Shown here: piece by piece, positions 7,857 through 23,675 of the stretch
Layout: every line of letters begins with the position of its first letter
How positions within the stretch are numbered: position 1 is the stretch's first letter
Virus record (IMG/VR): IMGVR_UViG_3300024239_000013
Span: 97,142-161,141 of that record
Length of the DNA: 64,000 nucleotides
Direction: 5' to 3' (one strand)
Origin: a virus
Notes under the pieces: generated by a model
The model's input: the letters and a program-made list of their open reading frames with translations, nothing else
Told to the model about the DNA's origin: nothing
The model's database searches: none
Made by a program: the position numbers and the translations under genes

Positions 7857-7952
7857 TATCAGTAAATGCCTGTCAATTTAACTATCTCTTTTAAGACACA
7901 GGAGAAATAAGATGAAATTGCTTTTAATTTGGTTATATTATCTATTAAATCT

Positions 7953-8141
7953 TTATTTATATAAATTAACCAAATAGTTTATGATCAAAAAAATTGAGAT
8001 TGCGTGGATAAATGCTGATGTGTAAAATATAATTTTAGTGTAGTTAAATTTTTTAAAAAATTCACCATCATCCAAAATTAAATATTTAAAAACATATAGA
8101 ATTCCTATTACTGGAATATGAATGTTAAATAATTTTCTCAT
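7953..8141 (-). CDS. small two-TM membrane protein
   Basis: 62 residues from MRKLFNIHIPVIGILYVFKY. The ATG at 8141 overlaps the stop of the upstream family C gene by 4 nt (ATGA), which fixes the start. Two hydrophobic segments (about 8-20 and 37-57) flank a charged loop (LDDGEFFKKFNYTK). Function unknown. Confidence 0.6.
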   Translation of the reverse strand: MRKLFNIHIPVIGILYVFKYLILDDGEFFKKFNYTKIIFYTSAFIHAISIFLIINYLVNLYK

Positions 8142-8503
8142 ATTGTATAATGTTTTAATGCTTTTAATAAACATTGTTCCAAACACTCTTCATAGTCCGT
8201 AAAATTTGATCCTATTGATATATTTACGTCATCTCCTACGATCAAACCTTCAAAGAAAAACCTCTTATCTTTTTTCTTAGGTATCACTGCTATGTGAATA
8301 TTTTTATATTCCCTTAGCCACTTTTGGAGAAGAGATTGTGTGGGGACTTCTATCTGAAAATATCCAATCTGGCTATTATATTGGCTCCTTGTAAGATCCC
8401 CATTCTTTTCATAATAAACATTCGAATAAGATGTAAATATAGTGCTAAATCCTATGTCTCTTGCAGCCTTAGCTGTTTTGAAAGATACTAATTTTTCTTG
8501 CAT
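8138..8503 (-). CDS. family C paralogue (TAKLAK type)
   Basis: 121 residues, first member of the paralogue array. It has the N-terminal signature SFKTAKAARDIGF, the central PTQSLLQKWLREYKNIHIAV and the C-terminal YEECLEQCLLKALK. The region between signatures is unrelated to the other copies. Families B and C share this layout and are probably one superfamily; function unknown. Confidence 0.7.
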   Translation of the reverse strand: MQEKLVSFKTAKAARDIGFSTIFTSYSNVYYEKNGDLTRSQYNSQIGYFQIEVPTQSLLQKWLREYKNIHIAVIPKKKDKRFFFEGLIVGDDVNISIGSNFTDYEECLEQCLLKALKHYTI

Positions 8504-8507
8504 TTTA

Positions 8508-8807
8508 TTATAGTTCTCTAATTATTTTCATTTTTTCTGCTAAAATCCATTCACCTCCTTGTGATTCTGGTCTGTTGAAAGTTTCAAAATTTTCAACCTC
8601 AACTTCAACCCAAACCCTATCTTTTTTGGATAGATGAGGAGCTTTTGGTTTCTTTAGACAATGCCACCCCTTTCTAGATGAATATCCTTTGGTCGGATGT
8701 TCCTCTGCTACCATCCACTCGTCGATCGATAATCGCTGTTTTTTGTTTATAAAAAGAGGGGAAAGCGAACCATCTTTAAGTTTTCTAACTAATTTATAAG
8801 CCTTCAT
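8508..8807 (-). CDS. conserved phage hypothetical protein
   Basis: 99 residues. The pattern MKAYKLVRKLKDGSLSPLFI, GWHCLKKPKAPHL, VWVEVEVENFETFNRPESQG matches a small conserved family seen in phages of several hosts; the biochemical role is unknown. The N-terminal 5 codons overlap the lipoprotein gene upstream by 14 bp. Confidence 0.7.
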   Translation of the reverse strand: MKAYKLVRKLKDGSLSPLFINKKQRLSIDEWMVAEEHPTKGYSSRKGWHCLKKPKAPHLSKKDRVWVEVEVENFETFNRPESQGGEWILAEKMKIIREL

Positions 8808-9099
8808 CTAATGTTGTCTTTTGTTGTTCAATGGTTTGTTGGGTTTTAGTTATCTCAGAACCTAAAACTTCATACGAACACCCAGATCCCGAAGATTTAC
8901 AGTTTATTTTTTTTAACCAGTACGTCCCATCATATTCATTAAAAGATTCCACAATGAAACTTTCATTTGAGACATAGACCAATGATCCTTCTTTAAATTC
9001 TTTTTTAACTGTTTTATCTGGCTGATACTGTTGTAGATTTGTCCCACAATCTTTACACCCAATAGTGAATAAAACTAAAATCAATAATAATTTTTTCAT
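8794..9099 (-). CDS. putative lipoprotein with SH3-like region
   Basis: 101 residues. Signal MKKLLLILVLFTIGC ends in a good lipobox (FTIGC). The mature part has a KEGSLVYVSNESFIVES strand pattern suggesting a small beta-barrel, plus a Cys pair (NCKSSGSGC). Its 3' end overlaps the next gene. Likely exported and membrane-anchored; role unknown. Confidence 0.65.
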   Translation of the reverse strand: MKKLLLILVLFTIGCKDCGTNLQQYQPDKTVKKEFKEGSLVYVSNESFIVESFNEYDGTYWLKKINCKSSGSGCSYEVLGSEITKTQQTIEQQKTTLDEGL

Positions 9100-9140
9100 A
9101 CTATTTTTAAATGTGATTTATGTTCTTTCTTACGTATCAA

Positions 9141-9701
9141 TTAGAAGTTTATAGAATCTTGTTCGTCTTGTTCTTTTTTATGAATTAAAAAGTTTAATCT
9201 ATTCTCATATACCAACTCTATGCATTGTGTTTTGTGGATTTTTACTGAATATCCAGTTGTGTCGAGGATCCAAAAAGAGGTATACCTTGCTTTCTCGAAT
9301 CTTACTGCCTGAAGTTCATATCCATCACCTTCATAATAAGGGGATTCAAAAGATTCGTATCTGTCTTGTGTTATCCCATATTTTTTATTGAAAATTTCTA
9401 CATATTTCCTATATTCGTCCTTTAGGCTATACCAGCTTGTTTGTTCTGGTAAATAAACTGCAAATTTCCAAACTGTATAAGATTTTGGACTGCTTACCAA
9501 AACTATATTAGCATTAGAATATTGGACCTTTCCGCTTAGAACTATGATGTTTTTATCACTGTCAATTACTTTAAATCCCTTTGCTTTAAATTTGGCAACA
9601 ACTTCATAAAGTTTACCTGAAACTTTAACTCCTAAAAATTCTTGTGAGTATCCTAAAGTTATTGTAAAAATTAACATTAGGAATGTGATGGTTTTTTTCA
9701 T
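9141..9701 (-). CDS. secreted hypothetical protein
   Basis: 186 residues with a Sec signal peptide (MKKTITFLMLIFTITLGYSQ, cleavage probably after residue 20). The mature protein opens FLGVKVSGKLYEVVAKFKAK, a pattern I associate with secreted Bacteroidetes proteins of unknown function. No catalytic motif. The 153-bp gap upstream (9702-9854) holds only a weak coding-like stretch. Confidence 0.65.
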   Translation of the reverse strand: MKKTITFLMLIFTITLGYSQEFLGVKVSGKLYEVVAKFKAKGFKVIDSDKNIIVLSGKVQYSNANIVLVSSPKSYTVWKFAVYLPEQTSWYSLKDEYRKYVEIFNKKYGITQDRYESFESPYYEGDGYELQAVRFEKARYTSFWILDTTGYSVKIHKTQCIELVYENRLNFLIHKKEQDEQDSINF

Positions 9702-9854
9702 TAAGATATATTTTAATAATTATTTTTTTTTATAAAATTTAATTCTGGATCATATCATTTATTCCCAGTTTGATTGATATCTACTGAACGATCTTCAGCG
9801 GATCCAATAGAATCTAAATCAATTGAAAATTCATAGAAAAACAAATATTTTATT

Positions 9855-10271
9855 CTATTGTATTAATTTTAAAGATTCCTTTAAAGCAGACTCCAATGCA
9901 GATTCATAGGTACAACCCCCTTCTTTTATGAAGAAATATAAATAGTGGTCTGAATATTCATCAGTTTTATAGATCTCTACTTTATATTCATTATATCCAG
10001 GTTTATTTCGTAATATTTGGATATCTATTTTATGTTCTTCTCTAAGCCACTTCTGTAAAAGAGATTGTGTTGTTACGTAATACCTTTCACCTTCGTCGAA
10101 TTCATTATTGCAATCATATATTACACCATCCAAATCTTCGACTATTAAAAACTCATCATGCTCCGTGCATAATCCTTTATAGTTGTCACAATAAAAATCT
10201 GCAAATCTTAAATTGAATCCTTTTTTCTTAGCCAATTTTGCGGTTTCCTCCGATATCTTTGTTTCTAGCAT
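9855..10271 (-). CDS. family C paralogue
   Basis: 138 residues: ISEETAKLAKKKGFNL at the start, TTQSLLQKWLREEHKIDIQI in the centre, YESALESALKESLKLIQ at the end. The central variable part is acidic (DCNNEFDEGERYY). It is separated from the rest of the array by the broken gene at 10339-10584. Confidence 0.7.
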   Translation of the reverse strand: MLETKISEETAKLAKKKGFNLRFADFYCDNYKGLCTEHDEFLIVEDLDGVIYDCNNEFDEGERYYVTTQSLLQKWLREEHKIDIQILRNKPGYNEYKVEIYKTDEYSDHYLYFFIKEGGCTYESALESALKESLKLIQ

Positions 10272-10338
10272 TTTTTTGTTTTTAAAAAATATAATAATTC
10301 TAATATCTTTATAGATTCAATAAATTCCTTATGAAATA

Positions 10339-10584
10339 TTATTCATAATCTTCCGAATCCTTATTTATATCAAGACTGTCACAAACAGAAAAGATTCCTT
10401 TATACTTTTCGTCGTAATCTTCTTCCCAATTCTTCGATATTTCGTTCCAAATATATCCTTATGAACCTTTAGAGTTTTCCGAATATCTAAATTCAACAAT
10501 CTCGTCATCAACATCAACCTTTCACTGGATACTTTCGACTCGCCATACAACTTGAACGTCCTCAAGTAACTTAATTTTTTCCAT
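10339..10584 (-). pseudogene. gene with two in-frame nonsense codons
   Basis: The frame from ATG 10584 reads MEKIKLLEDVQVVWRVESIQ, TGA (codon 21), KVDVDDEIVEFRYSENSKGS, TAA (codon 42), then GYIWNEISKNWEEDYDEKYK to a stop at codon 82. The frame is never lost, so two point mutations inactivated it. It overlaps the end of the upstream family A gene by 14 bp, normal spacing here. A 66-codon frame in another register (10365-10565) is not protein-like. Family unknown. Confidence 0.65.
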
Positions 10585-11431
10585 ATTTTTTATATTGTTC
10601 AAAACATTTTTTCATTCCACTATAGATTTTAGAATAGTCCTTATTATCTCTTAATTCTACACTATGTAAAGCATTTATAATTTCCTCCTCACTATACATT
10701 CTTTCTTGTTGCCATTTAGCAATATGAATAAACATTGATTTTATCCAAGTTTTTTCATGGGGTTGAATGGTTTTTGCTTCTAATAATTCTAAACTATACT
10801 TTTCAGCAGCTTCTTCAAGGGTTTCTTGTTTTTGATTTTCTAAAAACTCTTTAACTCCTTCCTTATCTAAATGTTGAAATTCATTCCAATCTCCAAGAAC
10901 TTTTTCTTTCGGGTTATTTTTTAGATATTCTTGTAAATTTTCAACAATTGTTTTAGGTTTGTGTTTTTCTTTTGAAATGATTATTTTGTAAAAAATTTGT
11001 GGGTTACATTTATAAGTATAATCACAAGATGATTTAACAGAACTATCACAAGATGTGCATTTACAAATAGAATCAAATTTAACCTCCTCACAATTAGGAT
11101 TTTTAACAAACCATTCTAAAAACTCATCATCAATAGCTTGTACACCATCTTTGATTAAGTCTTGGTCTGTTGTCATTATGACTAATTTACATTCGGATAA
11201 ATCAGTTAGATAATTAGGAAACTTATTTAAAATATTTCCTTTTTCTAAATGCCATTTCCCTTTATGTAGTCTTACATCTTTAATTTCTTCATCATAAGTG
11301 ATGTAAATGTGTTGGTTATTCAATCTTCCTCCTCTAATAATACAATTCTTATCAAGTCCTAAATTATTTGTCAATTCAGATCTAAATAATCTACTTGGTT
11401 TATCTGTTGGCACTAAATGTATGTTTTTCAT
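10571..11431 (-). CDS. family A paralogue (KNIH-LPT type)
   Basis: 286 residues. Layout: KNIHLVPTDKPSRLF (2-16), HIYITYDEEIKD (41-52), MTTDQDLIKDGVQAIDDEF (86-104) and LEWFVKNPNC (105-114), a Cys cluster (Cys123, 125, 128, 136, 142) likely binding zinc, YKIIISKE, then QETLEEAAEKY (202-212) and AKWQQERMYSEEEI (238-251). This order is kept across family A while the stretches between differ. The family is common in Bacteroidetes phages and has no known function. It is followed at 6 bp by a family B gene upstream. Confidence 0.75.
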   Translation of the reverse strand: MKNIHLVPTDKPSRLFRSELTNNLGLDKNCIIRGGRLNNQHIYITYDEEIKDVRLHKGKWHLEKGNILNKFPNYLTDLSECKLVIMTTDQDLIKDGVQAIDDEFLEWFVKNPNCEEVKFDSICKCTSCDSSVKSSCDYTYKCNPQIFYKIIISKEKHKPKTIVENLQEYLKNNPKEKVLGDWNEFQHLDKEGVKEFLENQKQETLEEAAEKYSLELLEAKTIQPHEKTWIKSMFIHIAKWQQERMYSEEEIINALHSVELRDNKDYSKIYSGMKKCFEQYKKYGKN

Positions 11432-11436
11432 GACCT

Positions 11437-11829
11437 TTATTTTTCTTTAACAATTTCAATTAATTTCTTTAAACATTCAAGTTCTGCTTCTTCTTGTGTT
11501 CTACACAAGTACCATTCTCCTATTCCGATTTCCTTATAATTTCCAAAATGTTCATATTGGAATATGTCAAAACAGAATTTGGGATCTGTTGTTCTGTCTA
11601 TTTGAATTTCACAAAATAGGTTATATTTCTCTCTAAACCATCTAAATGCTTGTGAGAATGTCGGGGCATATATATTTTGAATTGCTTCTTCTAAATAATT
11701 GTAATCATTAGGAGAATCCTGATAGTAGATTAAACTATTATTTTGACTATAAAATCCAAAACAAGATTCATCAAATCCTAATTCTTTTAAAGCTAATGCA
11801 ATTTTATAAGGTACGAATTCCCTTTCCAT
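11437..11829 (-). CDS. family B paralogue (LGFDE type)
   Basis: 130 residues: FVPYKIALALKELGFDESCF at the start, APTFSQAFRWFREKYNLFCE in the centre, EEAELECLKKLIEIVKEK at the end. The parts between the signatures are variable. One-base gap to the family C gene upstream. Confidence 0.75.
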   Translation of the reverse strand: MEREFVPYKIALALKELGFDESCFGFYSQNNSLIYYQDSPNDYNYLEEAIQNIYAPTFSQAFRWFREKYNLFCEIQIDRTTDPKFCFDIFQYEHFGNYKEIGIGEWYLCRTQEEAELECLKKLIEIVKEK

Positions 11830-11830
11830 T

Positions 11831-12241
11831 TTAAATTAATTTTAATGCTTCTTGTAACCCAACCTCGTAGGCTTCTTCATAAGTATCGTAAGTAATATCA
11901 CCTCTTTTCCACATTTGGATAATACCAACTGGTAATCTATGTAAATCAAATGACCAATTTAATAATTTATTGTAATTATTATTACTTATTTCAATATGGA
12001 TATTATGTTGTTCTCTCAACCATTTAGCAAGTAGTGATTGTGTTGGTGCATAAGCAACTATTGTTAATATATTACCAAAACTATCTACACTTCCTACAGA
12101 ATGACTATGATGTAGCTTTATTTTCTTATACTGCTTATTATCACTATTAGGAGTGTTAGCAAAACAAACATCTGTAAAAATGTTAAATCCTTTTTCTTTT
12201 GCAAGTTTTGCTGTTTTAAATGTTATAAGTGTATCTTCCAT
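11831..12241 (-). CDS. family C paralogue
   Basis: 136 residues: LITFKTAKLAKEKGFNI, APTQSLLAKWLREQHNIHIE, TYEEAYEVGLQEALKLI. The variable section has a His-rich loop (LHHSHSVGSVDS). Part of an A-B-C-B gene run. Confidence 0.75.
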   Translation of the reverse strand: MEDTLITFKTAKLAKEKGFNIFTDVCFANTPNSDNKQYKKIKLHHSHSVGSVDSFGNILTIVAYAPTQSLLAKWLREQHNIHIEISNNNYNKLLNWSFDLHRLPVGIIQMWKRGDITYDTYEEAYEVGLQEALKLI

Positions 12242-12259
12242 AGTTTTTTGTTTGGTAAG

Positions 12260-12745
12260 TTAAAGTTGTTTTTCATTTTGCCCTTTAACAATTTCAAATA
12301 ATTTCTTTAAACATTCAAGTTCTGCTTCTTCATACGTAAGTGGATGAATGTTTAAATCTTCTAAAGTTTCACCTTCATCAAACATATCTAATGTTGCGGT
12401 AAACCATTCACCTACAGGATATCCCATATAATAAGAATTTTGAGTCCCCTTATTAGTTATAAAAATATCGTAATCCCCCCCTAATATAGGGAAAGAATCG
12501 TACCCATTTTTTGAACCTAATATGGGTTTCATTGCGTAATGAATATTATATTTCTCTCTAAACCATCTAAAGATTTGTGAGAACGTTGGAGAAAGACATC
12601 CATTATTTCTCTTGAATATATTTCCATTTCTAGCATACTGAATATACAAATAACCATCAGTACCATAGAAACCAAAGCAAGGTTCATCAAAACCTAAGTC
12701 TTTAAGTTCTAATGCTTGTTCATAAGGTATAAATTCTTTTTCCAT
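12260..12745 (-). CDS. family B paralogue
   Basis: 161 residues, the longest B copy. It has FIPYEQALELKDLGFDEPCF, SPTFSQIFRWFREKYNIHYA and EEAELECLKKLFEIVKGQ. The extra length lies between the centre and the end, where an acidic segment (FDEGETLEDL) is inserted. Confidence 0.75.
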   Translation of the reverse strand: MEKEFIPYEQALELKDLGFDEPCFGFYGTDGYLYIQYARNGNIFKRNNGCLSPTFSQIFRWFREKYNIHYAMKPILGSKNGYDSFPILGGDYDIFITNKGTQNSYYMGYPVGEWFTATLDMFDEGETLEDLNIHPLTYEEAELECLKKLFEIVKGQNEKQL

Positions 12746-12782
12746 TTATTACTTTTTAATTATATAAACACCATGAATTTCT

Positions 12783-13004
12783 TCATATTGAGGTAATCCA
12801 TTTTTTAAGTTCTTTTATTTCCTTTTTGTAATCATCTTGTTGTACTATTAAACTAAAGTTTAAAGCGATCGAAAATCCAAATAAAACCACCATTAAAAAT
12901 ACATAATATATTCTTGAATATTTTTTATCATCAATGGCATAGCATACTTTAAAATATCCTATTATAAATAGAATAATCATTATTACAAGCACTGTTTCTC
13001 TCAT
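12783..13004 (-). CDS. small membrane protein
   Basis: 73 residues with two predicted transmembrane helices (VLVIMIILFIIGYF; IYYVFLMVVLFGFSIALNF) and a charged C-terminal tail. It overlaps the upstream detached A-module gene by 4 bp (stop/start overlap). No family recognised. Confidence 0.6.
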   Translation of the reverse strand: MRETVLVIMIILFIIGYFKVCYAIDDKKYSRIYYVFLMVVLFGFSIALNFSLIVQQDDYKKEIKELKKWITSI

Positions 13005-13354
13005 AATTTATTTCTTTTATATTGTTCAAACCATTTTTTAAAAACATCTTTCTTAGATATTTCAATAATTTCCCATTTTTCTAATTTTATTAACTCTTTA
13101 TATTGATAATAAAAATCAGCAAATTCAATCATATCTTCCTCTGTATACAAGTTTTTATTTTGTTCTTGTTGCCATTTAGCACCTTCGATCCATTCGTCCC
13201 TATATTGTTTATTTTTATCCCATTCATCATCTTCTAAAACAATTGGGTATAACATATAAGCAATCTCTTCAAGTGTTTCTTGTTTAGGTTCTTCTAATGG
13301 AGTACAATCACAATAAATTGTATGACCACAATAACATTTTGTTTTATTTTCCAT
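13001..13354 (-). CDS. detached C-terminal module of family A
   Basis: 117 residues: a short zinc-ribbon-like start (KCYCGHTIYCDC), then the family A C-terminal signatures PKQETLEEIAYMLYP and GAKWQQEQNKNLYTEEDM, ending KWFEQYKRNKL. It lacks the KNIH-LPT and DEFLEWFVKNP parts. DNA 13130-13295 is nearly identical to 16767-16932 in another A gene, showing recent duplication or conversion. Confidence 0.7.
   Translation of the reverse strand: MENKTKCYCGHTIYCDCTPLEEPKQETLEEIAYMLYPIVLEDDEWDKNKQYRDEWIEGAKWQQEQNKNLYTEEDMIEFADFYYQYKELIKLEKWEIIEISKKDVFKKWFEQYKRNKL
13130..13295 (-). repeat. 166-bp near-identical block, copy 1
   Basis: By eye this differs from 16767-16932 at three positions over 166 bp. 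Both copies encode the QETLEE...AKWQQEQNKNLYTEED module, in two different genes. Surrounding sequence is unrelated, which points to gene conversion or a recent segmental copy. Confidence 0.8.
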
Positions 13355-13358
13355 TATT

Positions 13359-14144
13359 TTACTTTTTAAATTGTTTTAAAATTAATTTATTAAACCAATC
13401 GCCAAACTGTATTTTTGAAAAACCTACAGATGATAATGCTTCATTATAAGAGTGTTTAGCAATTTTTTCAACCTCTTCCTCATTATACAAGTTTTTGTTT
13501 TGCTCTTGTTGCCATTCTGAACCTAGTCTAAAAAATAATATAAGACTATCAATTAGTGTTTCGTTTGATATTTTTCCACCTTTAGGATAATCTGAAAAAG
13601 TCTTATTAAAAGTTTCTAAAGCAATTCTTTTTGCTATTTGTTCAAGTGTTTCTTGTTTAGGTTCTTTTTTTGGAATGATTATTTTATATAATTGACCACC
13701 GTTATTTAACCACTCATCAAATTCCCTGTCAGTTAACCCTATATCATGTCCGTGAATATTTAATTCAACTTCTATCTCATCAGGAGTTTTTTCATCAACA
13801 TTAATAAACTCACAACTAGGATTTTTAACAAACCATTCTAAAAACTCATCATCAATAGCTTGTACCCCATCATTTATTAAGTCTTGGTCTGTTGTTAAGA
13901 TGATTTTAGAAGCATTATCTAATTCTTTAGAAAGTAAATATGATACTTGAACCAATCTACCATCTTTAGTGATTATCCAATCATTATCTTTAATGTCTTT
14001 TTCAGAAGTAATGTAGATATTTTTAGGTTCAACATATTCAACACCTCCTCTAGGAAATTTATCAAATATCAAATAGTTTTCCTTTCTAGTTGATAACCAT
14101 AACCTACTTGGTTTATCTGTTGTTAATAAATGTATGTTTTTCAT
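13359..14144 (-). CDS. family A paralogue
   Basis: 261 residues. KNIHLLTTDKPSRLW opens it; NIYITSEKDIKDNDWIITKD, TTDQDLINDGVQAIDDEF, LEWFVKNPSCEF, YKIIIPKKEPKQETLEQIAK and SEWQQEQNKNLYNEEEVEKI follow. It has no Cys cluster between the two halves, unlike most copies. It ends WFNKLILKQFKK. Confidence 0.75.
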   Translation of the reverse strand: MKNIHLLTTDKPSRLWLSTRKENYLIFDKFPRGGVEYVEPKNIYITSEKDIKDNDWIITKDGRLVQVSYLLSKELDNASKIILTTDQDLINDGVQAIDDEFLEWFVKNPSCEFINVDEKTPDEIEVELNIHGHDIGLTDREFDEWLNNGGQLYKIIIPKKEPKQETLEQIAKRIALETFNKTFSDYPKGGKISNETLIDSLILFFRLGSEWQQEQNKNLYNEEEVEKIAKHSYNEALSSVGFSKIQFGDWFNKLILKQFKK

Positions 14145-14149
14145 AATAA

Positions 14150-14539
14150 TTAAATTTTAAAATCAATATTTTCAGGTTTTAGAATATTTTCATATGCTTC
14201 TTTATAAGCTTTTTTTATATAATATGACCCAATTCCTGCATAATAAAAAATATCTGCAAGTGTTTTGTCTTCTGATTTATTAAATTCATTAGTTGCTAAT
14301 ATTTTTATAAGTCTATCTACTTCATTCTTTAAAGAAGTAAAATAATTATATTCTTCACTACCAATTTCGAATTTTTTTACTATTCTATCTTTACCATTAT
14401 TAATCCAAGTGAAATTATATCTATCAGGTTTATAATCAATATGTTCTATTCTTAAATTTTTTCCTTCTTCTGCCGATACGTAATAGTATTTAATACGACC
14501 TCTAAAATTTATAAGAGCGTAATAATCTTTATTTTCCAT
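14150..14539 (-). CDS. hypothetical protein inside the array
   Basis: 129 residues from MENKDYYALINFRGRIKYYY. The ATG at 14539 was chosen because it overlaps the upstream B gene by only 11 bp, whereas an ATG 8 codons earlier would overlap more. The N-terminal half is beta-rich, the C-terminal half helical. Not related to families A-C by eye. It may be a cargo gene in the array. Confidence 0.55.
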   Translation of the reverse strand: MENKDYYALINFRGRIKYYYVSAEEGKNLRIEHIDYKPDRYNFTWINNGKDRIVKKFEIGSEEYNYFTSLKNEVDRLIKILATNEFNKSEDKTLADIFYYAGIGSYYIKKAYKEAYENILKPENIDFKI

Positions 14540-14924
14540 AATTTTGTTCTTTAGCAATTTCAATTAATTTCTTTAAACATTCAAGTTCTGCTTCTTCGTA
14601 AGAATTAAATGATATTCCTTCATGTAAAGTCCAATACATTTCAATATCGCAAAAAACAGCAAATGTATATGAAGGTTTTGTATGATAATGCACAAATTTA
14701 TGTAAATTGTGGGTTTTTCTAAACCATCTAAATGCTTGTGAAAATGTTGGTGCAGCAATCATTAGTTTATCTCTATTTGAATGAAATGAACATATTTCAT
14801 CTTTCATAGGAATAGGTTTTAATTTGTTATTTTCTTCTATATCAAAATAAAAACTCAATGCTTCATCAAATCCTAATTCTTTTAAAATTAATGCTAAATT
14901 ATAAGGGATAAATTCTTTTTCCAT
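14529..14924 (-). CDS. family B paralogue
   Basis: 131 residues with FIPYNLALILKELGFDEALS, APTFSQAFRWFRKTHNLHKF and YEEAELECLKKLIEIAKEQ. The copy has lost the Cys/Phe after LGFDE that most others keep. Confidence 0.75.
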   Translation of the reverse strand: MEKEFIPYNLALILKELGFDEALSFYFDIEENNKLKPIPMKDEICSFHSNRDKLMIAAPTFSQAFRWFRKTHNLHKFVHYHTKPSYTFAVFCDIEMYWTLHEGISFNSYEEAELECLKKLIEIAKEQNYGK

Positions 14925-14928
14925 TATT

Positions 14929-15843: not shown

Positions 15844-15845
15844 AA

Positions 15846-16690: not shown

Positions 16691-16691
16691 A

Positions 16692-17489
16692 TTATTTCTT
16701 TTTGAATTGTTCTAAACTTTCATTTTCTGTAAAATGACCAATACTACCAAAATCATACATTTTTCTCATATCTTCCTCTGTATACAAGTTTTTATTTTGT
16801 TCTTGTTGCCATTTAGCACCTTCGATCCATTCGTCCCTATATTGTTTATTTTTATCCCATTCATCATCTTCTAAAACAATTGGGTATAACATATGAGCAA
16901 CCTCTTCAAGTGTTTCTTGTTTTGGTTCTTCTGTGTAGTGACCTTCACTTCCGCAAGGAGCATCACAAGTTACACATCTGTAAAATTTATTAGCTTCTCC
17001 ACATAGAATGTATTTAGTTTCTTCTTTTGTAATTATTATTTGATACCCTATTTTTTCATGGTAAATATATGGTAGTCCATTAAGATGTCTCTCTCTTAAT
17101 TCATCAATATTAAAATACCTTAATTTATCAATAACTTCAATAAATTCACATTTTGGATTCTTTACAAACCATTCTAAGAACTCATCATCAACTTCTTGTA
17201 CACCATCTTTGATTAAATCTTTGTCAGTTGTTAGAATAATTTTACTATAATGTTCAACATCATTGTATGCTTTTTCAAGTCCTTTAAAAACCTTTTGAAT
17301 ATCGTAGTCTTGTGAAGTGCTATGAACATAATCTCCTTTTTTAATCTCTTCATCAGAAGTTATGTAGATATGAACCCCTTTATTAAAAAATGAATTCTTT
17401 GAACATAATTCAAATTCAAATTCATTTATACCTTTAAACAATTGTAATCTACTTGGTTTTTCTGTTGGTAATAAATGTATGTTTTTCAT
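16692..17489 (-). CDS. family A paralogue
   Basis: 265 residues. KNIHLLPTEKPSRLQL, HIYITSDEEIKKGDYVHS, TTDKDLIKDGVQEVDDEF, LEWFVKNPKCEF, a Cys-rich centre (CGEANKFYRCVTCDAPCGS), then the C-terminal module shared at DNA level with 13130-13295. It ends SLEQFKKK. Confidence 0.75.
   Translation of the reverse strand: MKNIHLLPTEKPSRLQLFKGINEFEFELCSKNSFFNKGVHIYITSDEEIKKGDYVHSTSQDYDIQKVFKGLEKAYNDVEHYSKIILTTDKDLIKDGVQEVDDEFLEWFVKNPKCEFIEVIDKLRYFNIDELRERHLNGLPYIYHEKIGYQIIITKEETKYILCGEANKFYRCVTCDAPCGSEGHYTEEPKQETLEEVAHMLYPIVLEDDEWDKNKQYRDEWIEGAKWQQEQNKNLYTEEDMRKMYDFGSIGHFTENESLEQFKKK
16767..16932 (-). repeat. 166-bp near-identical block, copy 2
   Basis: Partner of 13130-13295; see that entry. The identity ends abruptly on both sides. 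Confidence 0.8.
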
Positions 17490-17511
17490 GCCCTTATTTT
17501 TTTAGTGATTA

Positions 17512-17985
17512 TTACATAATATCAGTAGAATGATCAATAAGTTTAAGAGATTCATACAAACCCTCCTCTAGTGCATTCTCGTAGGTTTTATGGTGAATAG
17601 TAAAGAAAGATAATCTTTTCCAAGGTTTACCCGACGGATTTTCCTTATTTGGAACATAGATTTCGAATCCAAAATCTCCAGCGATTTTTTGGACTATTAG
17701 GACCCTTATTTTATGGGTCTCTCTTAACCAGCATTGAAGATGTGATTGAGTAGGAGCAGAATATACCTCATAAGAATTATTCGACATATCAAAACCATCG
17801 ACACCATTCTTATGATAAAAATTTGACATTTCGACCTGATCTTTTTTATAAGATTCTGGGTGATCTGGATCATCGTCATAAACGTAATCTTTCTTATAAA
17901 TCACATATGAATTATAAACTCCTAAATCAAAATTCTTATTCTTAGCTAATTTTGCGGTCTTCTTTGATATCAATCTATCTACCAT
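17512..17985 (-). CDS. family C paralogue
   Basis: 157 residues: LISKKTAKLAKNKNFDLGVY, APTQSHLQCWLRETHKIRVL, KTYENALEEGLYESLKLI. The segment QKIAGDFGFEIYVPNKENP is nearly repeated in the C gene at 21553. It has its own promoter candidate 20 nt upstream, inside a duplicated DNA segment. Confidence 0.75.
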   Translation of the reverse strand: MVDRLISKKTAKLAKNKNFDLGVYNSYVIYKKDYVYDDDPDHPESYKKDQVEMSNFYHKNGVDGFDMSNNSYEVYSAPTQSHLQCWLRETHKIRVLIVQKIAGDFGFEIYVPNKENPSGKPWKRLSFFTIHHKTYENALEEGLYESLKLIDHSTDIM

Positions 17986-18119
17986 ATCGTTTTATATTAT
18001 GAAGCAAATCTATAAAATTATTACGGAGATAAAAAATAACAACAAAAAATGCACGCTCTTTATGTGTGATAATTTTTTGGATTCATATTTAGTCACATTG
18101 ATCCTTGCATAATCTAATT
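17981..18119 (-). repeat. duplicated promoter segment, copy 1
   Basis: From ATATCGTTTT through TTATGTGTGATAATTTTTTG to TCCTTGCATAA this matches 19146-19281 with a few changes. It carries the promoter of a family C gene and the 3' end of a family B gene. Confidence 0.75.
18005..18025 (-). promoter_or_regulatory. CG-N11-TAGATTTG promoter candidate
   Basis: Minus strand CG at 18025-18024, 11 nt, TAGATTTG at 18012-18005, 20 nt before the ATG at 17985. ATTTTTTATCTC lies just before the CG. Confidence 0.6.
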
Positions 18120-18460
18120 AATGTGTTAAGGCACTCTAGTCTGGCTTCATCGTAGATACTAAATTCTTTAGATTTAATAAAAGTAAAACCGGGTTTCGTT
18201 ACTACAGAGTAGTATAGTGGTAATTTAGGATTTTCGAAAGCATAGGAAACACTACTCTCCATTTTATAGTTATATCTAAAAAAATCAAAAGCTTGCTGCC
18301 AAAGGGGAGCTGATGCAACTTGACCATGGAAACTGAATTGTTTTTTACAATACTCCATATTAAGGTACTTATCATCAAGATAACAAGCATAGCATGGTTC
18401 ATCAAATCCAAGTTTTTCAAGTTCTAATGCTTGTTCATACGGGATAAATTGTTCTTCCAT
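18089..18460 (-). CDS. family B paralogue
   Basis: 123 residues: FIPYEQALELEKLGFDEPCY, APLWQQAFDFFRYNYKMESS, YDEARLECLNTLIRLCKDQ. One of the more diverged B copies, since the central TFSQ has become LWQQ. Its last codons lie within the duplicated segment 17981-18119. Confidence 0.7.
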   Translation of the reverse strand: MEEQFIPYEQALELEKLGFDEPCYACYLDDKYLNMEYCKKQFSFHGQVASAPLWQQAFDFFRYNYKMESSVSYAFENPKLPLYYSVVTKPGFTFIKSKEFSIYDEARLECLNTLIRLCKDQCD

Positions 18461-18466
18461 AATCTT

Positions 18467-18781
18467 CTATTTTCGTTTGACAATTTCAATTAATTTCTTT
18501 AAACATTCAAGTTCTGCTTCTTCGTATGTTTTAAAAACGCTCAGGTTCCACTTTTCAAAAAACCACATTCCGTATTTTATTTGTATTGAGTAGTACAGTC
18601 CATACTTTTCCCTAAACCATCTAAATGTTTGTGAAAATGTTGGTGCTTTATTGATACCATCGGAATATCCATAACAAACTTTATTGTTACTAAACTCGTC
18701 ATAAAATCCCAAACAAGATTCATTAAAACCTAATTCTTTTAAAGATAATGCAACTTCATAAGGTAAAAACTCTTTTTCCAT
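18467..18781 (-). CDS. family B paralogue, short
   Basis: 104 residues, the shortest B copy. The three signatures (FLPYEVALSLKELGFNESCL; APTFSQTFRWFREKYGLYYS; YEEAELECLKKLIEIVKRK) are kept and the variable parts are reduced. Its 3' end is nearly the same as that of 19283-19651. Confidence 0.7.
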   Translation of the reverse strand: MEKEFLPYEVALSLKELGFNESCLGFYDEFSNNKVCYGYSDGINKAPTFSQTFRWFREKYGLYYSIQIKYGMWFFEKWNLSVFKTYEEAELECLKKLIEIVKRK

Positions 18782-18782
18782 T

Positions 18783-19150
18783 TTAAATTAATTTTAATGC
18801 TTCTTGTAAACCAATCTCGTAGGATTCTTCATAATTATTTTTTTCTACACTTTGATACCCTTTTACAATTGGTTTGTCAAAACAAGGTGTTAATATATAT
18901 TTTTTAATTCCATTGGAAAAAGCTCTCTGAACTAAATATCAATTTCATGTTCTTCTCTCAGCCATTTAGCAAGTAGTGATTGAGTTGCCCTTTCGTACCA
19001 TTCTTTACAAGTATCAACCATAGCACCACCTATCCCTAAATTTTCTATACTACCATCATCTCTAAACTTTCCTTTTGTTTTTCTTGATTGTGGAAATCCT
19101 TTTTCTTTAGCAAGTTTTGCTGTTTCAGATGTTATTCTTGTATCTACCAT
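18783..19150 (-). pseudogene. frameshifted family C copy
   Basis: Starts MVDTRITSETAKLAKEKGFP at 19150 and keeps ATQSLLAKWLREEHEIDI, then hits TAG near 18932. Shifting by one base there restores LVQRAFSNGIKKYILTPCFD and then NNYEESYEIGLQEALKLI to a stop at 18783-18785, the expected C ending. A single-base deletion therefore explains the truncation. Confidence 0.75.
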
Positions 19151-19281
19151 ATCGTTTTTATTATGAAGCAAATCTATAAAATTATTACGAGGATAAAAAA
19201 TAACAATAAAAAAAATAGATGTTCTTTATGTGTGATAATTTTTTGGATTCATATTTAGTCACATTGATCCTTGCATAACCT
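19146..19281 (-). repeat. duplicated promoter segment, copy 2
   Basis: Copy of 17981-18119. After the shared CCTTGCATAA it joins sequence matching 18462-18530 (CTTCTATTTTCGTTTGACAA), as if the family B gene at 18119-18460 had been deleted from the duplicated unit. Confidence 0.75.
19169..19189 (-). promoter_or_regulatory. CG-N11-TAGATTTG promoter candidate
   Basis: Minus strand CG at 19189-19188, 11 nt, TAGATTTG at 19176-19169, 19 nt before the ATG of the frameshifted family C copy. It is inside the duplicated segment. Confidence 0.55.
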
Positions 19282-19282
19282 T

Positions 19283-19651
19283 CTATTTTCGTTTGACAAT
19301 TTCAATTAATTTCTTTAAACATTCAAGTTCTGCTTCTTCGTATGTACCATTATAGTTCATAGGTTCAGTTCCAAGTTGTCTATTTCCTTTATTATCAAAA
19401 ACTTGATAAGAAAACTCTTGTGTTCCAATCTCAATTAAACCACATAATTTATACTTTTCTCTAAAGAATCTAAATGCTTGTGAGAATGTTGGGCAGTTAA
19501 TTGTATTATACAACATTGAACCTCTTGGTGAAGATTTACTTCCTTTAACGTGAATGTAACCTATTTGGTCTATACTACCAAAACAAGTCTCATCAAATCC
19601 TAATTCTTTAAGTTCTAATGCCAAATTATAAGGTACAAATTCTTTTTCCAT
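19283..19651 (-). CDS. family B paralogue
   Basis: 122 residues: FVPYNLALELKELGFDETCF, CPTFSQAFRFFREKYKLCGL, YEEAELECLKKLIEIVKRK. Its start follows the small zinc protein gene by one base. Confidence 0.75.
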   Translation of the reverse strand: MEKEFVPYNLALELKELGFDETCFGSIDQIGYIHVKGSKSSPRGSMLYNTINCPTFSQAFRFFREKYKLCGLIEIGTQEFSYQVFDNKGNRQLGTEPMNYNGTYEEAELECLKKLIEIVKRK

Positions 19652-19849
19652 TTATTTCTTTTTAAATTTATCACATCTTTTAATCCAGTGTGGGTCATAA
19701 TTACTAGGAAAAAAGAAAGACCATTGATTCCATGTAGCATCTAATTTTTTATTTCTTCCTTTAAAATCTTCTTTTTGCCATTCAGCATTACATTTTGAAT
19801 GAGCGTCTCCTATAATTTTTTCTCTAAATTTACAATTTATACAATTCAT
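19652..19849 (-). CDS. small Cys-rich protein, paralogue of 39221-39436
   Basis: 65 residues: [40 protein letters not shown]. Four conserved Cys (4, 7, 20 and near the end) and one His suggest a single zinc site. The gene at 39221-39436 keeps [15 protein letters not shown] and [19 protein letters not shown]. The family is small and its function unknown. Confidence 0.65.
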   Translation of the reverse strand: MNCINCKFREKIIGDAHSKCNAEWQKEDFKGRNKKLDATWNQWSFFFPSNYDPHWIKRCDKFKKK

Positions 19850-19852
19850 GAT

Positions 19853-20716
19853 TCATTTATTTTTAAATTGTTCAAACCATTGTTGTTCTGTTAAATTAGA
19901 GTCTAATCCATATGTTTCAGAATAACTAATATTTTGTTCTCCTTGTCTAAATGCTTCCCTTAAATCTTCCTCACTATATAAGTTTTCATCTTGTTTTTGT
20001 TGCCATTTAGCACCAGTTATAAATGAACCGTAGTTGTCTCCTGCGGTATTATCGTTATTTGACCACTTATTACCATTGATTTCAAATACCCATTTTTTAG
20101 CAGCTTCTTCTAGTGCTTCTTGTTTAGACTCTAACTCATGAGAATATTTTTCTAAACCTTGTTGCTCGTATTCTTGAACTGTTTGTTTAGGCTCTTTTTT
20201 TCTCATAGGACAATGTATTGAATGACAATTTTTAAAATTAGAGGTTCTACATTTTGGACAATTGATAGGTTCTTCTTTTGATATTTCGGTATCTTCTTTT
20301 GGAATGATTATTTCATAGTCGTAAGTATCCCCAACTTCATGAAAATATTTTTCAACTTCAACCTCCTCACAATTTGGATTCTCAACAAACCACTCTAAAA
20401 ACTCATCATCAATTTCTTGAACACCATCTTTGATTAAGTCTTGGTCTGTTGTTAAAATGATTTTTTTAGGTTTATTATTACTTCTTAAAGCCATTGTGTT
20501 TTGCCAAAACCAAACTCTACCGTTATTATAAACCCAAACATCATTTTCAAAACCTGTTATTTCTTCATCAGAAGTGATATAAATATTAACATATTCTTTA
20601 AATGAGTCATTTACTTCAACATCTAATTTTAATGTGAAAGTTTCTCTATTAACATCATTGTAAATTTTAACTAATCTACTCGGTTTATTTGTTGGTAAGA
20701 TGTATAAGTTTTTCAT
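19853..20716 (-). CDS. family A paralogue
   Basis: 287 residues: KNLYILPTNKPSRLVKI, NIYITSDEEITGFENDVWVY, TTDQDLIKDGVQEIDDEF, LEWFVENPNCEEVEVEKY, a Cys/His cluster (CPKCRTSNFKNCHSIHCPM), then two adjacent QE modules (PKQTVQEYEQQGLEKYSHE; KQEALEEAAKKW) before AKWQQKQDENLYSEEDL. The double QE region is particular to this copy. It is first in its transcript, behind a canonical promoter. Confidence 0.75.
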   Translation of the reverse strand: MKNLYILPTNKPSRLVKIYNDVNRETFTLKLDVEVNDSFKEYVNIYITSDEEITGFENDVWVYNNGRVWFWQNTMALRSNNKPKKIILTTDQDLIKDGVQEIDDEFLEWFVENPNCEEVEVEKYFHEVGDTYDYEIIIPKEDTEISKEEPINCPKCRTSNFKNCHSIHCPMRKKEPKQTVQEYEQQGLEKYSHELESKQEALEEAAKKWVFEINGNKWSNNDNTAGDNYGSFITGAKWQQKQDENLYSEEDLREAFRQGEQNISYSETYGLDSNLTEQQWFEQFKNK

Positions 20717-20737
20717 TGTTGTTTTAATTTTCTATAA

Positions 20738-20766
20738 CAAATATATAACAATTATTTTTTATTCAA
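20738..20766 (-). promoter_or_regulatory. Bacteroidetes-type promoter TTG-N18-TATATTTG
   Basis: Minus strand TTG at 20766-20764, 18 nt, TATATTTG at 20745-20738, 22 nt before the ATG at 20716. This is close to the known -33 TTG / -7 TAnnTTTG arrangement of the Bacteroidetes primary sigma factor. Confidence 0.65.
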
Positions 20767-20853
20767 CGGGATATTTTATAAAAATTTAATACTACTACAA
20801 AATCATCATTTACTTTTAATCTTTTGAAATTGTTCAATCATTTTAATATGTTT

Positions 20854-21513
20854 TTATAGGTTTTTTTCAACCCATTTATCCCATTCAAAAAAGACACTAT
20901 GCAAAGAATCCGATTTCCAGCCATTTTCACAATATTCCTTTACTTTATTAGCAAATTCAATAACCTCTTCCCTACTCCAGCTATCTTTTGCTATCTTAAT
21001 TGTAATAGTATTGTCTTGTGGATTTATTTTTAATATAGATTTAACCTTATCATAACCATATGCATCTAGTTCATCCACATATTCTTTACCCTCAAATTTA
21101 TTTTCACATTCAACTAATACATCGGTAATAATGTTCCCACGATTATATTCTTCAATATATTTTTGAATAAATTGTTGTGATGGTTGAGGTAATTCTAAAG
21201 AAGAGTCAGTCGAAGCAATTACTTTTTTAGCTACATTTTTAAATTCCTTAGTAATAGCCTCTAATCTTTTTGAATCACATTTATGTAATCCATAATAAGA
21301 AGATTTCATAGATGTACCTAAATACCAGTCATTTTCTTTAATTTCATCATCTGAAATAATATAAAGATGATGCCCAATATAATCTTCATGTTCCATTAAA
21401 TATTTAGTTTTAATAGCAATTATTTTATCTTGTCCTGTTATATCTTTACAAATCATTCCATCTGTTTTTTGATTAGTTGGTAGCATTACCACATTCGCAT
21501 TAATAAAGCTCAT
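20854..21513 (-). CDS. divergent family A-like protein
   Basis: 219 residues. It keeps the first half of the A layout in altered form: VVMLPTNQKTDGMICKD, HHLYIISDDEIKENDWYLG, KKVIASTDSSLELPQPSQQF, then IQKYIEEYNRGNIITDVLVE instead of DEFLEWFVKNP. The end (SWSREEVIEFANKVKEYC) replaces the QQE module. The LPQPS..FI..YI version is the form I associate with other Bacteroidetes phages, so this may be the ancestral type. Confidence 0.65.
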   Translation of the reverse strand: MSFINANVVMLPTNQKTDGMICKDITGQDKIIAIKTKYLMEHEDYIGHHLYIISDDEIKENDWYLGTSMKSSYYGLHKCDSKRLEAITKEFKNVAKKVIASTDSSLELPQPSQQFIQKYIEEYNRGNIITDVLVECENKFEGKEYVDELDAYGYDKVKSILKINPQDNTITIKIAKDSWSREEVIEFANKVKEYCENGWKSDSLHSVFFEWDKWVEKNL

Positions 21514-21552
21514 TTTTTTTATTTTTTTTAAGTTCTGTAAAATTATTATTTT

Positions 21553-21963
21553 TTAAATTAATTTTAATGCTTCTTGTAATCCAATCTCATAGGCTTCTTC
21601 ATAAGTTTTAAAATGCAGTGTGAAGTATGCTAATCTTTCAAAAGGTTTTCCGACAGGATTGTCTTTATTTGGAATATAAATTTCGAATCCAAAATCTCCT
21701 GCAATTTTTTGTATTGGGTATACTCTTATACTATATTCTTCTCTCAACCATTTAGCAAGTAGTGATTGTGTTGGGGCAGAAACAAATTCTATATCAGATG
21801 TATTTTCTCCTCTTATATACTTTCTTATCCTCCAATCTGATACATCTCCTTTAAATTCTCCCTTGTAATTATAATAAGGAATTTCAAGTCTGTTAGTTTC
21901 TTGGAAAAATCCTTTTTCTTTAGCAAGTTTTGCGGTTTCAAATGTTACTCTTGTATCTTCCAT
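21553..21963 (-). CDS. family C paralogue
   Basis: 136 residues from MEDTRVTFETAKLAKEKGFF; ATG 21963 was chosen because family members start MED or MVD. It has APTQSLLAKWLREEYSIRVY, QKIAGDFGFEIYIPNKDNP and YEEAYEIGLQEALKLI. The FGFEIYIPNK block links it to 17512-17985. Confidence 0.75.
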   Translation of the reverse strand: MEDTRVTFETAKLAKEKGFFQETNRLEIPYYNYKGEFKGDVSDWRIRKYIRGENTSDIEFVSAPTQSLLAKWLREEYSIRVYPIQKIAGDFGFEIYIPNKDNPVGKPFERLAYFTLHFKTYEEAYEIGLQEALKLI

Positions 21964-21987
21964 ATTTTTTTGTTTAGTAAGCAAAAG

Positions 21988-22422
21988 TTATTTTATATTT
22001 TGTTTTTTAACAATTTCTATTAATTTTCTGATACAAGCAAGTTCTGCCTCCTCGTAAGAGTTATAAATTATTCCACTTTGCATTTCAGATAAAAAGTCTT
22101 GCCTTATGTTTTCAGAAATATTTTTAATCTCATAAGCATAATCTATTTTATTAATTGGTAAAACTATACAAGAGTGTAATTTATACTTCTCTCTAAACCA
22201 TCTAAATGCTTGCTGATATAGTGGTGCGGATATAGGTTCATTTTCAAATCCTTCTAATTGACTATTTAGAAGTAAATGAGGACAATGTGATAGAGGATTA
22301 CCTTCATTTACAGTATCATAACAAAATAAACTTATTTCATCAAAGCCTAATTCTTTGAGTTCTAATGCTAATTCGTAAGGACAGAAAAGACTTTCCATTC
22401 CTTGTTTTTTTACTTCTTCCAT
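21988..22422 (-). CDS. family B paralogue
   Basis: 144 residues: FCPYELALELKELGFDEISL, APLYQQAFRWFREKYKLHSC, YEEAELACIRKLIEIVKKQ. The start could be at MEEVKKQG or 7 codons later at MESLFCPY; the second matches the other copies better. Confidence 0.7.
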   Translation of the reverse strand: MEEVKKQGMESLFCPYELALELKELGFDEISLFCYDTVNEGNPLSHCPHLLLNSQLEGFENEPISAPLYQQAFRWFREKYKLHSCIVLPINKIDYAYEIKNISENIRQDFLSEMQSGIIYNSYEEAELACIRKLIEIVKKQNIK

Positions 22423-23283
22423 TTATTTCTTTTTAGATAATAAAAAATCTTCTTTTGCATCTACTCTAAATGAACTAGCATATTTATGAAATAATAAATC
22501 AATAATTTTTAAAACCTCTTCTTCACTATACATTCTTTCTTGTTGACATTTGACTAATTCTATTGCTCGTTTGATGACTATAGGTTTTGTTATATCTCCA
22601 AAACCGTCAAATATTCTTTCAGCAGCTTCTTCAAGTGTTTCTTGTTTGGGTTTTAAATTTTGTAACTCAATAATACTTCTAGTACCAAAGCCTATTTGTT
22701 TTAGTTTACTTTGTTCTATATTAAGTGCTTCTTCTAAAGTTAGATTAAATTGTTTTAAAGAGTTCTCTAATCTTACTGATATTACTTGTTTCTTTTCTTC
22801 TTTTGGAATGATTATTTTAAATAGTATGTGAGTTCTATAATTACCATGACAGGTTTTATATTTAGGATTGTTTTTGTCTTCATTACAATTACTACATACG
22901 TAATTATATTTAACATCAACCTTTTCACAACTTGGATTCTTAACAAACCATTCTAAGAACTCATCATCAATTTCTTGAACACCATCTTTGATTAAGTCTG
23001 GGTGTGTTGTTAGGATTACTTTTTTATACTTATAATCAGTACCTGTTGATATATTCAAGACTTGTTCCTCATTACATTTAAATAATTCAGTAATTTTTTC
23101 ATTATTAGGTGTAAATTCGATACACCAATCTCCCTTTTTAATTATTTCATCAGAAGTAATGTAGATGTGTTGAGATGTATTGAATGGTAATACATTTTTT
23201 GATAATTCTAACTTACCTTGAAGTAAATTATTTTTCCATAATCTACTTGGTTTATCTGTTGGTAATATATGTATATTTTTCAT
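22423..23283 (-). CDS. family A paralogue with an RpoA-CTD-like insertion
   Basis: 286 residues. The usual signatures are at 2-15 (KNIHILPTDKPSRL), 39-47 (HIYITSDEI), 91-110 (TTHPDLIKDGVQEIDDEFL) and 111-119. A Cys cluster (Cys130, 133, 145) follows. Residues about 168-210, starting ISVRLENSLKQFNLTLEEAL and ending KQIGFGTRSIIELQNL, match the helix-hairpin-helix pattern of the RNA polymerase alpha C-terminal domain (SVR..N.L, L.I..fG..S..El). The rest is the QE module and CQQERMYSEEE. No other A copy has this insert. Confidence 0.75.
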   Translation of the reverse strand: MKNIHILPTDKPSRLWKNNLLQGKLELSKNVLPFNTSQHIYITSDEIIKKGDWCIEFTPNNEKITELFKCNEEQVLNISTGTDYKYKKVILTTHPDLIKDGVQEIDDEFLEWFVKNPSCEKVDVKYNYVCSNCNEDKNNPKYKTCHGNYRTHILFKIIIPKEEKKQVISVRLENSLKQFNLTLEEALNIEQSKLKQIGFGTRSIIELQNLKPKQETLEEAAERIFDGFGDITKPIVIKRAIELVKCQQERMYSEEEVLKIIDLLFHKYASSFRVDAKEDFLLSKKK

Positions 23284-23675
23284 AGTTTTTCTTCTTTAAC
23301 AATTTCTATTAATTTTTTTAAACACTCATGTTCTGCTTCTTCGTAAGAATAGTAAGGACTTGAATAAAAATCTTTTTTAATGTAATCATCTATTCCAAAA
23401 TAGAACCCTTTATTTTCTCTTTGTTGATACAATGACTTAATATGAGACTCTATATTATATTTCTCTCTAAAAAATCTAAATGCTTGAGAAAATGTTGGTG
23501 CTCCACATAAATCTTCCCATTCACTATTTTTTGCTAAATAAGGAAAATCTTTTAATATGTGCCTTTCAATATAATCTAAATCTCCATTTGGTTCATAATA
23601 ACCAAAACAAGGTTCATCAAAACCTAAGTCTTTAAGTTCTAATGCCAAATTATAAGGTATAAATTCTTTTTCCAT
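23280..23675 (-). CDS. family B paralogue
   Basis: 131 residues from MEKEFIPYNLALELKDLGFD (ATG 23675, matching the other B starts and 22 nt from a promoter box). Centre APTFSQAFRFFREKYNIESH, end YEEAEHECLKKLIEIVKEE. It is the first gene of the right-hand unit of the array and overlaps the A gene by 4 bp. Confidence 0.75.
   Translation of the reverse strand: MEKEFIPYNLALELKDLGFDEPCFGYYEPNGDLDYIERHILKDFPYLAKNSEWEDLCGAPTFSQAFRFFREKYNIESHIKSLYQQRENKGFYFGIDDYIKKDFYSSPYYSYEEAEHECLKKLIEIVKEEKL

Follow-up and report, generated by a model that had tools for sequence, protein, structure and literature searches.

Two variable cassettes are exchanged independently between fixed anchors in a family of small phage proteins

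We analyzed a 64,000-nucleotide (nt) stretch of viral DNA (the window; positions 97,142 to 161,141 of IMG/VR record IMGVR_UViG_3300024239_000013, i.e., G000:97142-161141). The whole virus record, G000, is a jumbo-phage record of 319,334 bp. Between positions 8138 and 23675 (15.5 kb), three gene families, A, B, and C, are interleaved, all on the minus strand. B and C proteins share one layout, in which three fixed anchors (N-terminal, central, and C-terminal) enclose two variable cassettes, V1 and V2. We found that V1 and V2 are swapped independently of each other. The original prediction for this array had spoken of fixed anchors with replaced interiors; this proved literally so, the interiors being exchanged as cassettes.

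V1 was defined as the segment between the N-terminal and central anchors (median 30 amino acids (aa)) and V2 as that between the central and C-terminal anchors (median 36 aa). Linkage between them was assessed in 323 unique B/C proteins, forming 52,003 pairs, with cassettes regarded as shared at an identity of at least 0.6 and as unrelated below 0.35; identical whole proteins were collapsed before counting, and the intact inheritance of whole genes is therefore under-counted. Among the 54 pairs that shared V1, V2 was also shared in 4 and lay below 0.35 in 48. Similarly, V1 lay below 0.35 in 64 of the 69 pairs that shared V2. That is, each cassette was either near-identical or unrelated between proteins, and linkage was rare. 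Recurring cassettes were found with at least two different partners in 32/34 cases for V1 and 41/43 for V2. Other gene families from the same loci were used as controls; 226 of their 372 pairs with one similar half agreed in both halves, and 28 were strongly discordant. A rough Chao1 estimate placed the cassette pool at no fewer than ~1,460 V1 and 975 V2 types.

Alignments of the window B genes with their nearest relatives were chimeric. The B gene at 19283 and L024:9633 agreed almost completely over the central anchor and everything downstream of it but were unrelated upstream, and in the B gene at 23280 the near-identity to L067:9998 ran as far as the central anchor, with unrelated sequence beyond. 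Two C genes of the window (17512-17985 and 21553-21963) shared V2 alone. Family A varied in the same way, albeit in small numbers: V2 was shared in none of the seven pairs that shared V1 and was unrelated in all seven. In addition, one A cassette of 167 nt occurred twice in the window at 98.2% identity (13129-13295 and 16766-16932), in different genes with unrelated flanks.

The shared tracts ended inside the anchors. In V1-sharing pairs, residue identity remained at ~0.9 over most of the central anchor but was 0.03 at its end; V2-sharing pairs showed high identity from that point on, up to and including the start of the C-terminal anchor. The 80-bp gene flanks showed background identity in nearly all sharing pairs. 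Since the tracts end in anchors and the flanks are at background, the exchanged unit lies within the gene. These flanks also bear on whether A and B/C are cognate, co-diversifying pairs (toxin-antitoxin or effector-immunity). The interleaving of A and B/C genes and their frequent co-occurrence at a locus (A with B at 81 loci) would suit such pairs; however, cassettes with unrelated flanks do not travel with a partner, the gene order of the array is irregular, and B or A also occurs alone. We rejected toxin-antitoxin pairing because the flanks are not shared, and cognate pairing of any type is highly improbable.

Replaced interiors were also found in cultured phages. Flavobacterium phages FpV4 and Fpv1 were 97.6-98.7% identical on both sides of a C gene, the first codons and last part of which aligned around an unrelated interior (V1 0.12, V2 0.18); FpV4 carries a GIY-YIG gene, absent in Fpv1, inserted just upstream of the replaced C gene. 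Leptolyngbya phage Lbo-JY46 and contig L168 had a V2 identity of 0.96 and a V1 identity of 0.18, and their nucleotide match began in the central anchor and faded in the C-terminal anchor. As both comparisons rest on cultured-phage genomes and give the same pattern, assembly error is not the cause. Most of our sequences are metagenome contigs and the anchors are repeated within a genome, such that assemblers might have joined unrelated halves at short conserved anchors. However, copies of a shared cassette carry synonymous differences (median pS 0.35), and exact identity in the central anchor extends over a median of ~20 nt at the longest, mostly too short for such joins. The assembly explanation is thus largely refuted, and we give it almost no weight.

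The cassettes are under purifying selection. Shared cassettes had a median nucleotide identity of 0.86-0.89 and a pooled ratio of nonsynonymous to synonymous substitution rates (dN/dS) of 0.24 for V1 and 0.18 for V2, both rough values drawn from overlapping pairs and short stretches. The pooled whole-gene dN/dS (~0.6 in interiors) mixes homologous and non-homologous interiors, and the per-cassette estimate was used instead. The values of ~0.2 within cassettes indicate that diversity comes from whole-cassette swaps rather than from diversifying point mutation. The dN/dS of the variable segments had been proposed as a check against uniform selection with constant copy number; purifying selection was indeed found inside each cassette, yet copy number varies strongly. 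This variation (14 to 0 in related records), the one broken C copy, and the lack of a known function would suit dispensable filler, in which anchors are carried along by recombination and interiors drift. However, the dN/dS of shared cassettes and the conserved buried positions reveal selection on interiors, and nearly all array features have intact frames. Because selection acts inside the cassettes, a neutral role is disfavored, and we consider it improbable.

The strong copy-number variation that the original prediction had asked about was seen between the window phage and its relatives, several of whose records are incomplete. B/C copies numbered 14 in the window and 3, 1, 0, 0, and 0 in related records; in the same six records, A copies numbered at least 9 (window), 4, 1, 0, 0, and 1. 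The array lies in a variable gap flanked by the gene at 25806-26264, which adjoins a Dda-like helicase common to five relatives (70-83% identity), and by a T4-type RNA ligase/phosphoesterase/kinase cassette (G000:88430-90631). In the window phage, the gap spans ~32 kb (G000:90632-122946). In L248, a 348-kb record with no B/C copies, it spans 2 bp, i.e., the island is absent beside a helicase that is 75% identical. The gaps of L249, L250, and L246 measured ~0.3, 1.4, and 5.1 kb, respectively, and that of L247 ~7 kb; in L247, gene 25806 is missing and one A gene lies within the gap. In the nearest relative, A/B/C genes are located ~40 kb from the gap; therefore, they are not tied to one site.

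We propose that the island may serve as an accessory-gene store of modular chimeric genes. Each B/C gene would encode a small scaffold protein (N-terminal anchor, V1, central anchor helix, V2, and C-terminal anchor helix), and different copies would recombine homologously in their conserved anchor DNA, swapping V1 and V2 independently. Exchange between co-infecting phages would be the main route, to some extent accompanied by exchange inside the array, such that each phage would hold its own combinations from a large shared cassette pool. A genes would be built likewise from at least three cassettes, selection would keep each cassette intact, and homing endonucleases may trigger exchange. Taken as a whole, this reading, which extends from the modular store through anchor recombination to binders of host targets, is in our judgment fairly probable. 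The sequences argue strongly for recombination at the anchors as the likely mechanism. Anchor stretches of 46-106 nt in the window were ~86-100% identical between copies with unrelated interiors; the anchors thus offer repeated homology. Reverse transcriptase (PF00078) was absent from G000 and detected in controls, indicating that the record holds no diversity-generating retroelement.

GIY-YIG-like genes adjoined A/B/C genes 17 times versus 7.4 expected (p 0.002) in a set of 64 genes defined by profiles, in line with endonuclease-driven exchange in phages (PMC10448857). The cassettes could thus be passengers of homing endonucleases that move via endonuclease-driven gene conversion and have no recognition role. 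The FpV4 insertion and an A module fused to an HNH-like protein in L181 also agree with this. However, most A/B/C genes have no such neighbor, and the explanation accounts for movement and not for cassette conservation; we regard it as unlikely.

Several points weigh against our proposal of a modular store shuffled at anchors. The mechanism is read from end products rather than from directly observed crossovers, and in exchanged pairs the central anchors have a median exact homology of only ~20 nt. In 236 same-locus pairs, only one cassette was shared. The whole interior differs between FpV4 and Fpv1, which represents interior replacement and not independence of V1 and V2, and family A contributes only small numbers. 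A single profile set underlies the endonuclease enrichment; 10 endonucleases collected by regular expressions showed no enrichment beside A/B/C genes. Synonymous-codon identity within versus between phages was 0.76 versus 0.69 at the N-terminal anchor and 0.72 versus 0.65 at the C-terminal anchor, and did not differ at the central anchor. The within-phage values thus exceed the between-phage ones by little, and support for recombination inside the array is weak relative to that for exchange between phages; intra-array exchange was seen once or twice.

Open reading frames (ORFs) and alignments reproduced the three families where they had been predicted. Searches of the whole record with profiles yielded eight B genes, five intact C genes and one broken C gene, six full A genes, one divergent A gene (20854-21513), and two detached A C-terminal modules. 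This is the predicted breakdown; the predicted total of about 22 genes fell one short, as the sum is 23 features. Every B/C gene of the 319-kb record was inside the array, and three more weak A-like matches lay at G000:18-30 kb. The broken C gene is split by TAG into pieces at G000:116073-116291 and G000:115927-115998. The 23 A/B/C copies of the window compare with a maximum of 8 elsewhere among 241 loci (loci up to 21 kb), a density far beyond chance. B and C form one superfamily, as had been suggested from their layout: profiles iterated from B or from C both reached 305 ORFs at 194 loci, and the B profile matched C members and vice versa. The alignments also bore out three short signatures per gene with strongly varying interiors, namely LxxLGF / LAKEKGF (N-terminal), APT.S..RWFRE / APTQSLL.KWLRE (central), and YEEAEL.CL..L (C-terminal).

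We found relatives on viral contigs for B (at least 474), C (158), and A (at least 414). C relatives occurred in cultured Cellulophaga and Flavobacterium phages and crAss-like genomes, and B relatives in a Leptolyngbya phage and huge-phage genomes. A prokaryote scan (one genome per species, 84,980 species) yielded a single B gene, on a 4.3-kb contig. Because viral contigs are rich in these families and the prokaryote scan gave one B gene, A/B/C are phage genes. The tree contained no single window-specific clade, and mosaicism limits what a tree can tell. The C genes matched phrog_12005 over most of their length (E 1e-21 to 1e-31); among 150 B/C members, 96 matched phrog_12005 and 123 matched phrog_25117, and family A fell in part in phrog_15656, all three being PHROGs of unknown function. 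A, B, and C had no convincing family match in Pfam, NCBIfam, PADLOC, or PDB sequences; in PADLOC-DB, seven of eight proteins had no match and the remaining one had a weak partial PtuB match (E 0.001). An initial idea that B/C adopt the Pfam Phage_ABA_S or DUF2591 fold was dropped, as there was no Pfam match. These families have so far been known by name only, annotated as hypothetical proteins, and we found no report of cassette shuffling in them in a limited open-access literature.

A model of a representative B protein (11437-11829) had a predicted local distance difference test (pLDDT) score of 88 and a predicted template modeling (pTM) score of 0.81. The predicted fold comprises an N-terminal helix and a hairpin followed by alpha-beta-beta-beta-alpha; the central anchor forms a helix and V2 spans the three strands. 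Strand positions 75, 85, 87, and 89, which alternate and presumably point inward, are conserved, and the others have an entropy near 4 bits. The model thus fits a conserved core with a hypervariable outer face. Three uncharacterized phage proteins in BFVD matched it well. In the PDB, the best Foldseek neighbors were T7 Gp1.2 and many double-stranded RNA-binding domains (dsRBDs), with no match reaching E 1e-3. T7 Gp1.2 (a dGTPase inhibitor, PDB 7u66) has a similar alpha-beta-beta-beta-alpha core (Foldseek probability 0.92, target TM 0.53); however, its E value is 0.16, neither it nor the dsRBDs have a sequence relation to B/C, and B/C have the extra N-terminal helix and hairpin. In the A model (22423-23283), residues 1-130 form an N-terminal domain predicted with confidence, and the helical C-terminal part is less certain; Foldseek of the full model returned nothing, and the low-confidence C-terminal half may have spoiled the search.

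dsRNA-binding domains carry a basic KKxAK-type motif in the last helix. If B/C had a dsRBD-like core, the same shuffling could act on proteins that target nucleic acids, each cassette setting RNA or DNA specificity. The alpha-beta-beta-beta-alpha arrangement in the second half of the model, the many dsRBDs among the Foldseek neighbors, and a mimivirus DRBM protein at probability 1.0 agree with this. However, the shortfall from E 1e-3 applies here as well, no dsRBD match in the PDB had E <0.1, and the last helix of B/C starts with YEEAEL (consensus TYEEAELxCLKKL) and not with the basic motif. We consider nucleic-acid targets unlikely.

We infer that the proteins bind many different host targets, because conserved cassettes lie on a variable face, each phage holds many combinations, and turnover between relatives is strong; a recognition repertoire fits these features. 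Most likely, they help the phage to commandeer host functions or to block defenses, although the anti-defense role is a guess and the weakest step of our reading. More tentatively, at somewhat less than even chance, phages, mostly of Bacteroidota, may draw on a common pool of at least ~1,000 V1 and ~1,000 V2 cassettes for one scaffold (with comparable pools for A and probably for a further family, D), reassorted at anchors into a population-level combinatorial library of binders that is held in expandable islands and aimed at changing host defenses.

By mode of variation, HsdS is the closest analogue. Its variable domains are exchanged at conserved repeats, also across loci (domain movement, DOMO; Furuta et al. 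2011, PMC3077401). B/C likewise have two exchangeable variable parts separated and followed by conserved segments. However, HsdS is a large DNA-recognition subunit, whereas B/C are phage proteins of ~130 aa with cassettes of 30-40 aa, and neither Pfam nor NCBIfam matched HsdS or target recognition domain sequence in B/C. Intragenic mosaicism was described in phage receptor-binding proteins, endolysins, and replication proteins (Smug et al. 2023, PMC10684548), i.e., in proteins of assigned function with shared fragments of at least 50 aa, and unknown and accessory proteins were named there as a likely unseen reservoir. Both cases involve ongoing fragment shuffling between phages, whereas the B/C cassettes are shorter, show almost no linkage, and are set between three fixed anchors. 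Homing-endonuclease islands (Barth et al. 2023, PMC10448857) are likewise accessory regions with endonuclease genes at exchange boundaries; however, the exchanged unit exceeds 10 kb there and is a ~100-bp cassette inside a gene here. Diversity-generating retroelements also combine a fixed scaffold with hypervariable positions, whereas the present record lacks a reverse transcriptase and its cassettes are near-identical or unrelated, not point-mutated. T4 hyperplastic regions occupy a fixed site between conserved genes and hold small genes of unknown function that differ between relatives. The island resembles them in its fixed site, conserved flanks, and relative-specific small genes; the T4 genes are not known to be built from shuffled cassettes.

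Hundreds of viral contigs carry these families, and it is unusual for two cassettes in such small proteins to be almost completely unlinked. Each cassette, being conserved and separable, can be tested on its own, which offers a handle on function, and if the targets are host defense or takeover factors, the cassettes would lead to them. With its pieces swapped between unrelated viruses, the arrangement resembles a natural toolkit from which new proteins are assembled, probably ones that bind host-cell components. Whole-protein identity clustering hides such families; fixed anchors with interchangeable interiors provide a sequence signature for finding more diversified families in phage dark matter. 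The features of the array are listed below.

Table 1. Array features and adjoining elements in window coordinates; V1 and V2 values are identities.
Feature	Position	Strand	Remark
C gene	8138..8503	-	profile match G000:105288-105644
C gene	9855..10271	-	V1 0.67 with L116, V2 0.19
A gene, full	10571..11431	-	
B gene	11437..11829	-	structure-model representative; vs L261 V2 0.63 / V1 0.15
C gene	11831..12241	-	phrog_12005 E 9e-31
B gene	12260..12745	-	vs L024:10408-10914 V2 0.75 / V1 0.19
A C-terminal module, detached	13001..13354	-	contains cassette copy 13129-13295
A gene, full	13359..14144	-	phrog_15656: no match
B gene	14529..14924	-	
A gene, full	14929..15843	-	phrog_15656 E 2e-9, part of profile only
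A C-terminal module, detached, unrelated N-terminus ahead	16259..16690	-	
A gene, full	16692..17489	-	donor or recipient of 167-nt intragenomic copy
C gene	17512..17985	-	vs C 21553-21963, same phage: V2 0.69, V1 0.14
B gene, most divergent	18089..18460	-	
B gene	18467..18781	-	vs L034:10001-10342 V2 0.81 / V1 0.26
Broken C gene	18781..19171	-	N-terminal + central 18932-19171; C-anchor remnant ~18781-18858
B gene, chimera	19283..19651	-	vs L024:9633-10001 V2 0.91 / V1 0.12
A gene, full	19853..20716	-	
A gene, divergent	20854..21513	-	phrog_15656 E 2e-13, most of profile
C gene	21553..21963	-	
B gene	21988..22422	-	start probably better placed at internal ATG, 22398
A gene, full	22423..23283	-	structure-model representative; phrog_15656 E 3e-3, part of profile only
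B gene, chimera	23280..23675	-	vs L067 and L331 V1 0.72-0.84, V2 0.18-0.22
GIY-YIG-like gene, array edge	24333..25127	-	below Pfam cut-off; nearest relative retains at 66%
Window portion of ~32-kb variable island	1..25805	.	

Within the array, a 189-nt tract at 86% identity (17930-18115 versus 19094-19281) reaches from intergenic sequence into the start of two C genes and may contain a shared promoter. Paralogous small cysteine-rich proteins (IGDAHSKC...NYDPxWIKxCxKF) are encoded at 19652-19849, within the array, and at 39221-39436. A N-terminal modules in L181:10722-11693 and L218:1399-2553 are fused, directly after a KEEPKQE joint, to HNH/NUMOD-like and other homing-endonuclease-like domains, and a 518-aa ORF at L211:5379-6935 consists of three fused A N-terminal modules with no C-terminal module.

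Family D (window 5675-6163 and 6167-6628) has relatives on 38 viral contigs and combines variable interiors with fixed parts at the N-terminal end (NTLENKAKFFAQY), the middle (LxLxPLSQI), and the C-terminal end (RSKGYALPWMGLSVxxLxEYGW). Among 435 pairs, L434/L427 had a V1 identity of 1.00 and a V2 identity of 0.14, and there was one whole-gene match; these sequences hint at cassette shuffling in family D. Family E comprises small proteins with the signature FLKQPLKLEMFxPCDEDG, with three copies in the same island (window 2301-2741; L255:14098-14535 and 15687-16043) and too few relatives for analysis.

The island also encodes a 96-aa protein (5089-5379); its Peptidase S24-like match is weak (E 8e-4) and falls below the Pfam cut-off. 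A gene that L250 carries in one piece (20140-21282) is split at L255:1717-4300 (G000:78858-81441) into two parts around an ORF at 2448-3416, which looks like an intein or homing-element insertion. Adjacent TnpA-like (53250-53660) and TnpB-like (52157-53257) ORFs at 52157-53660 of the window resemble, by eye, the IS200/IS605 type.

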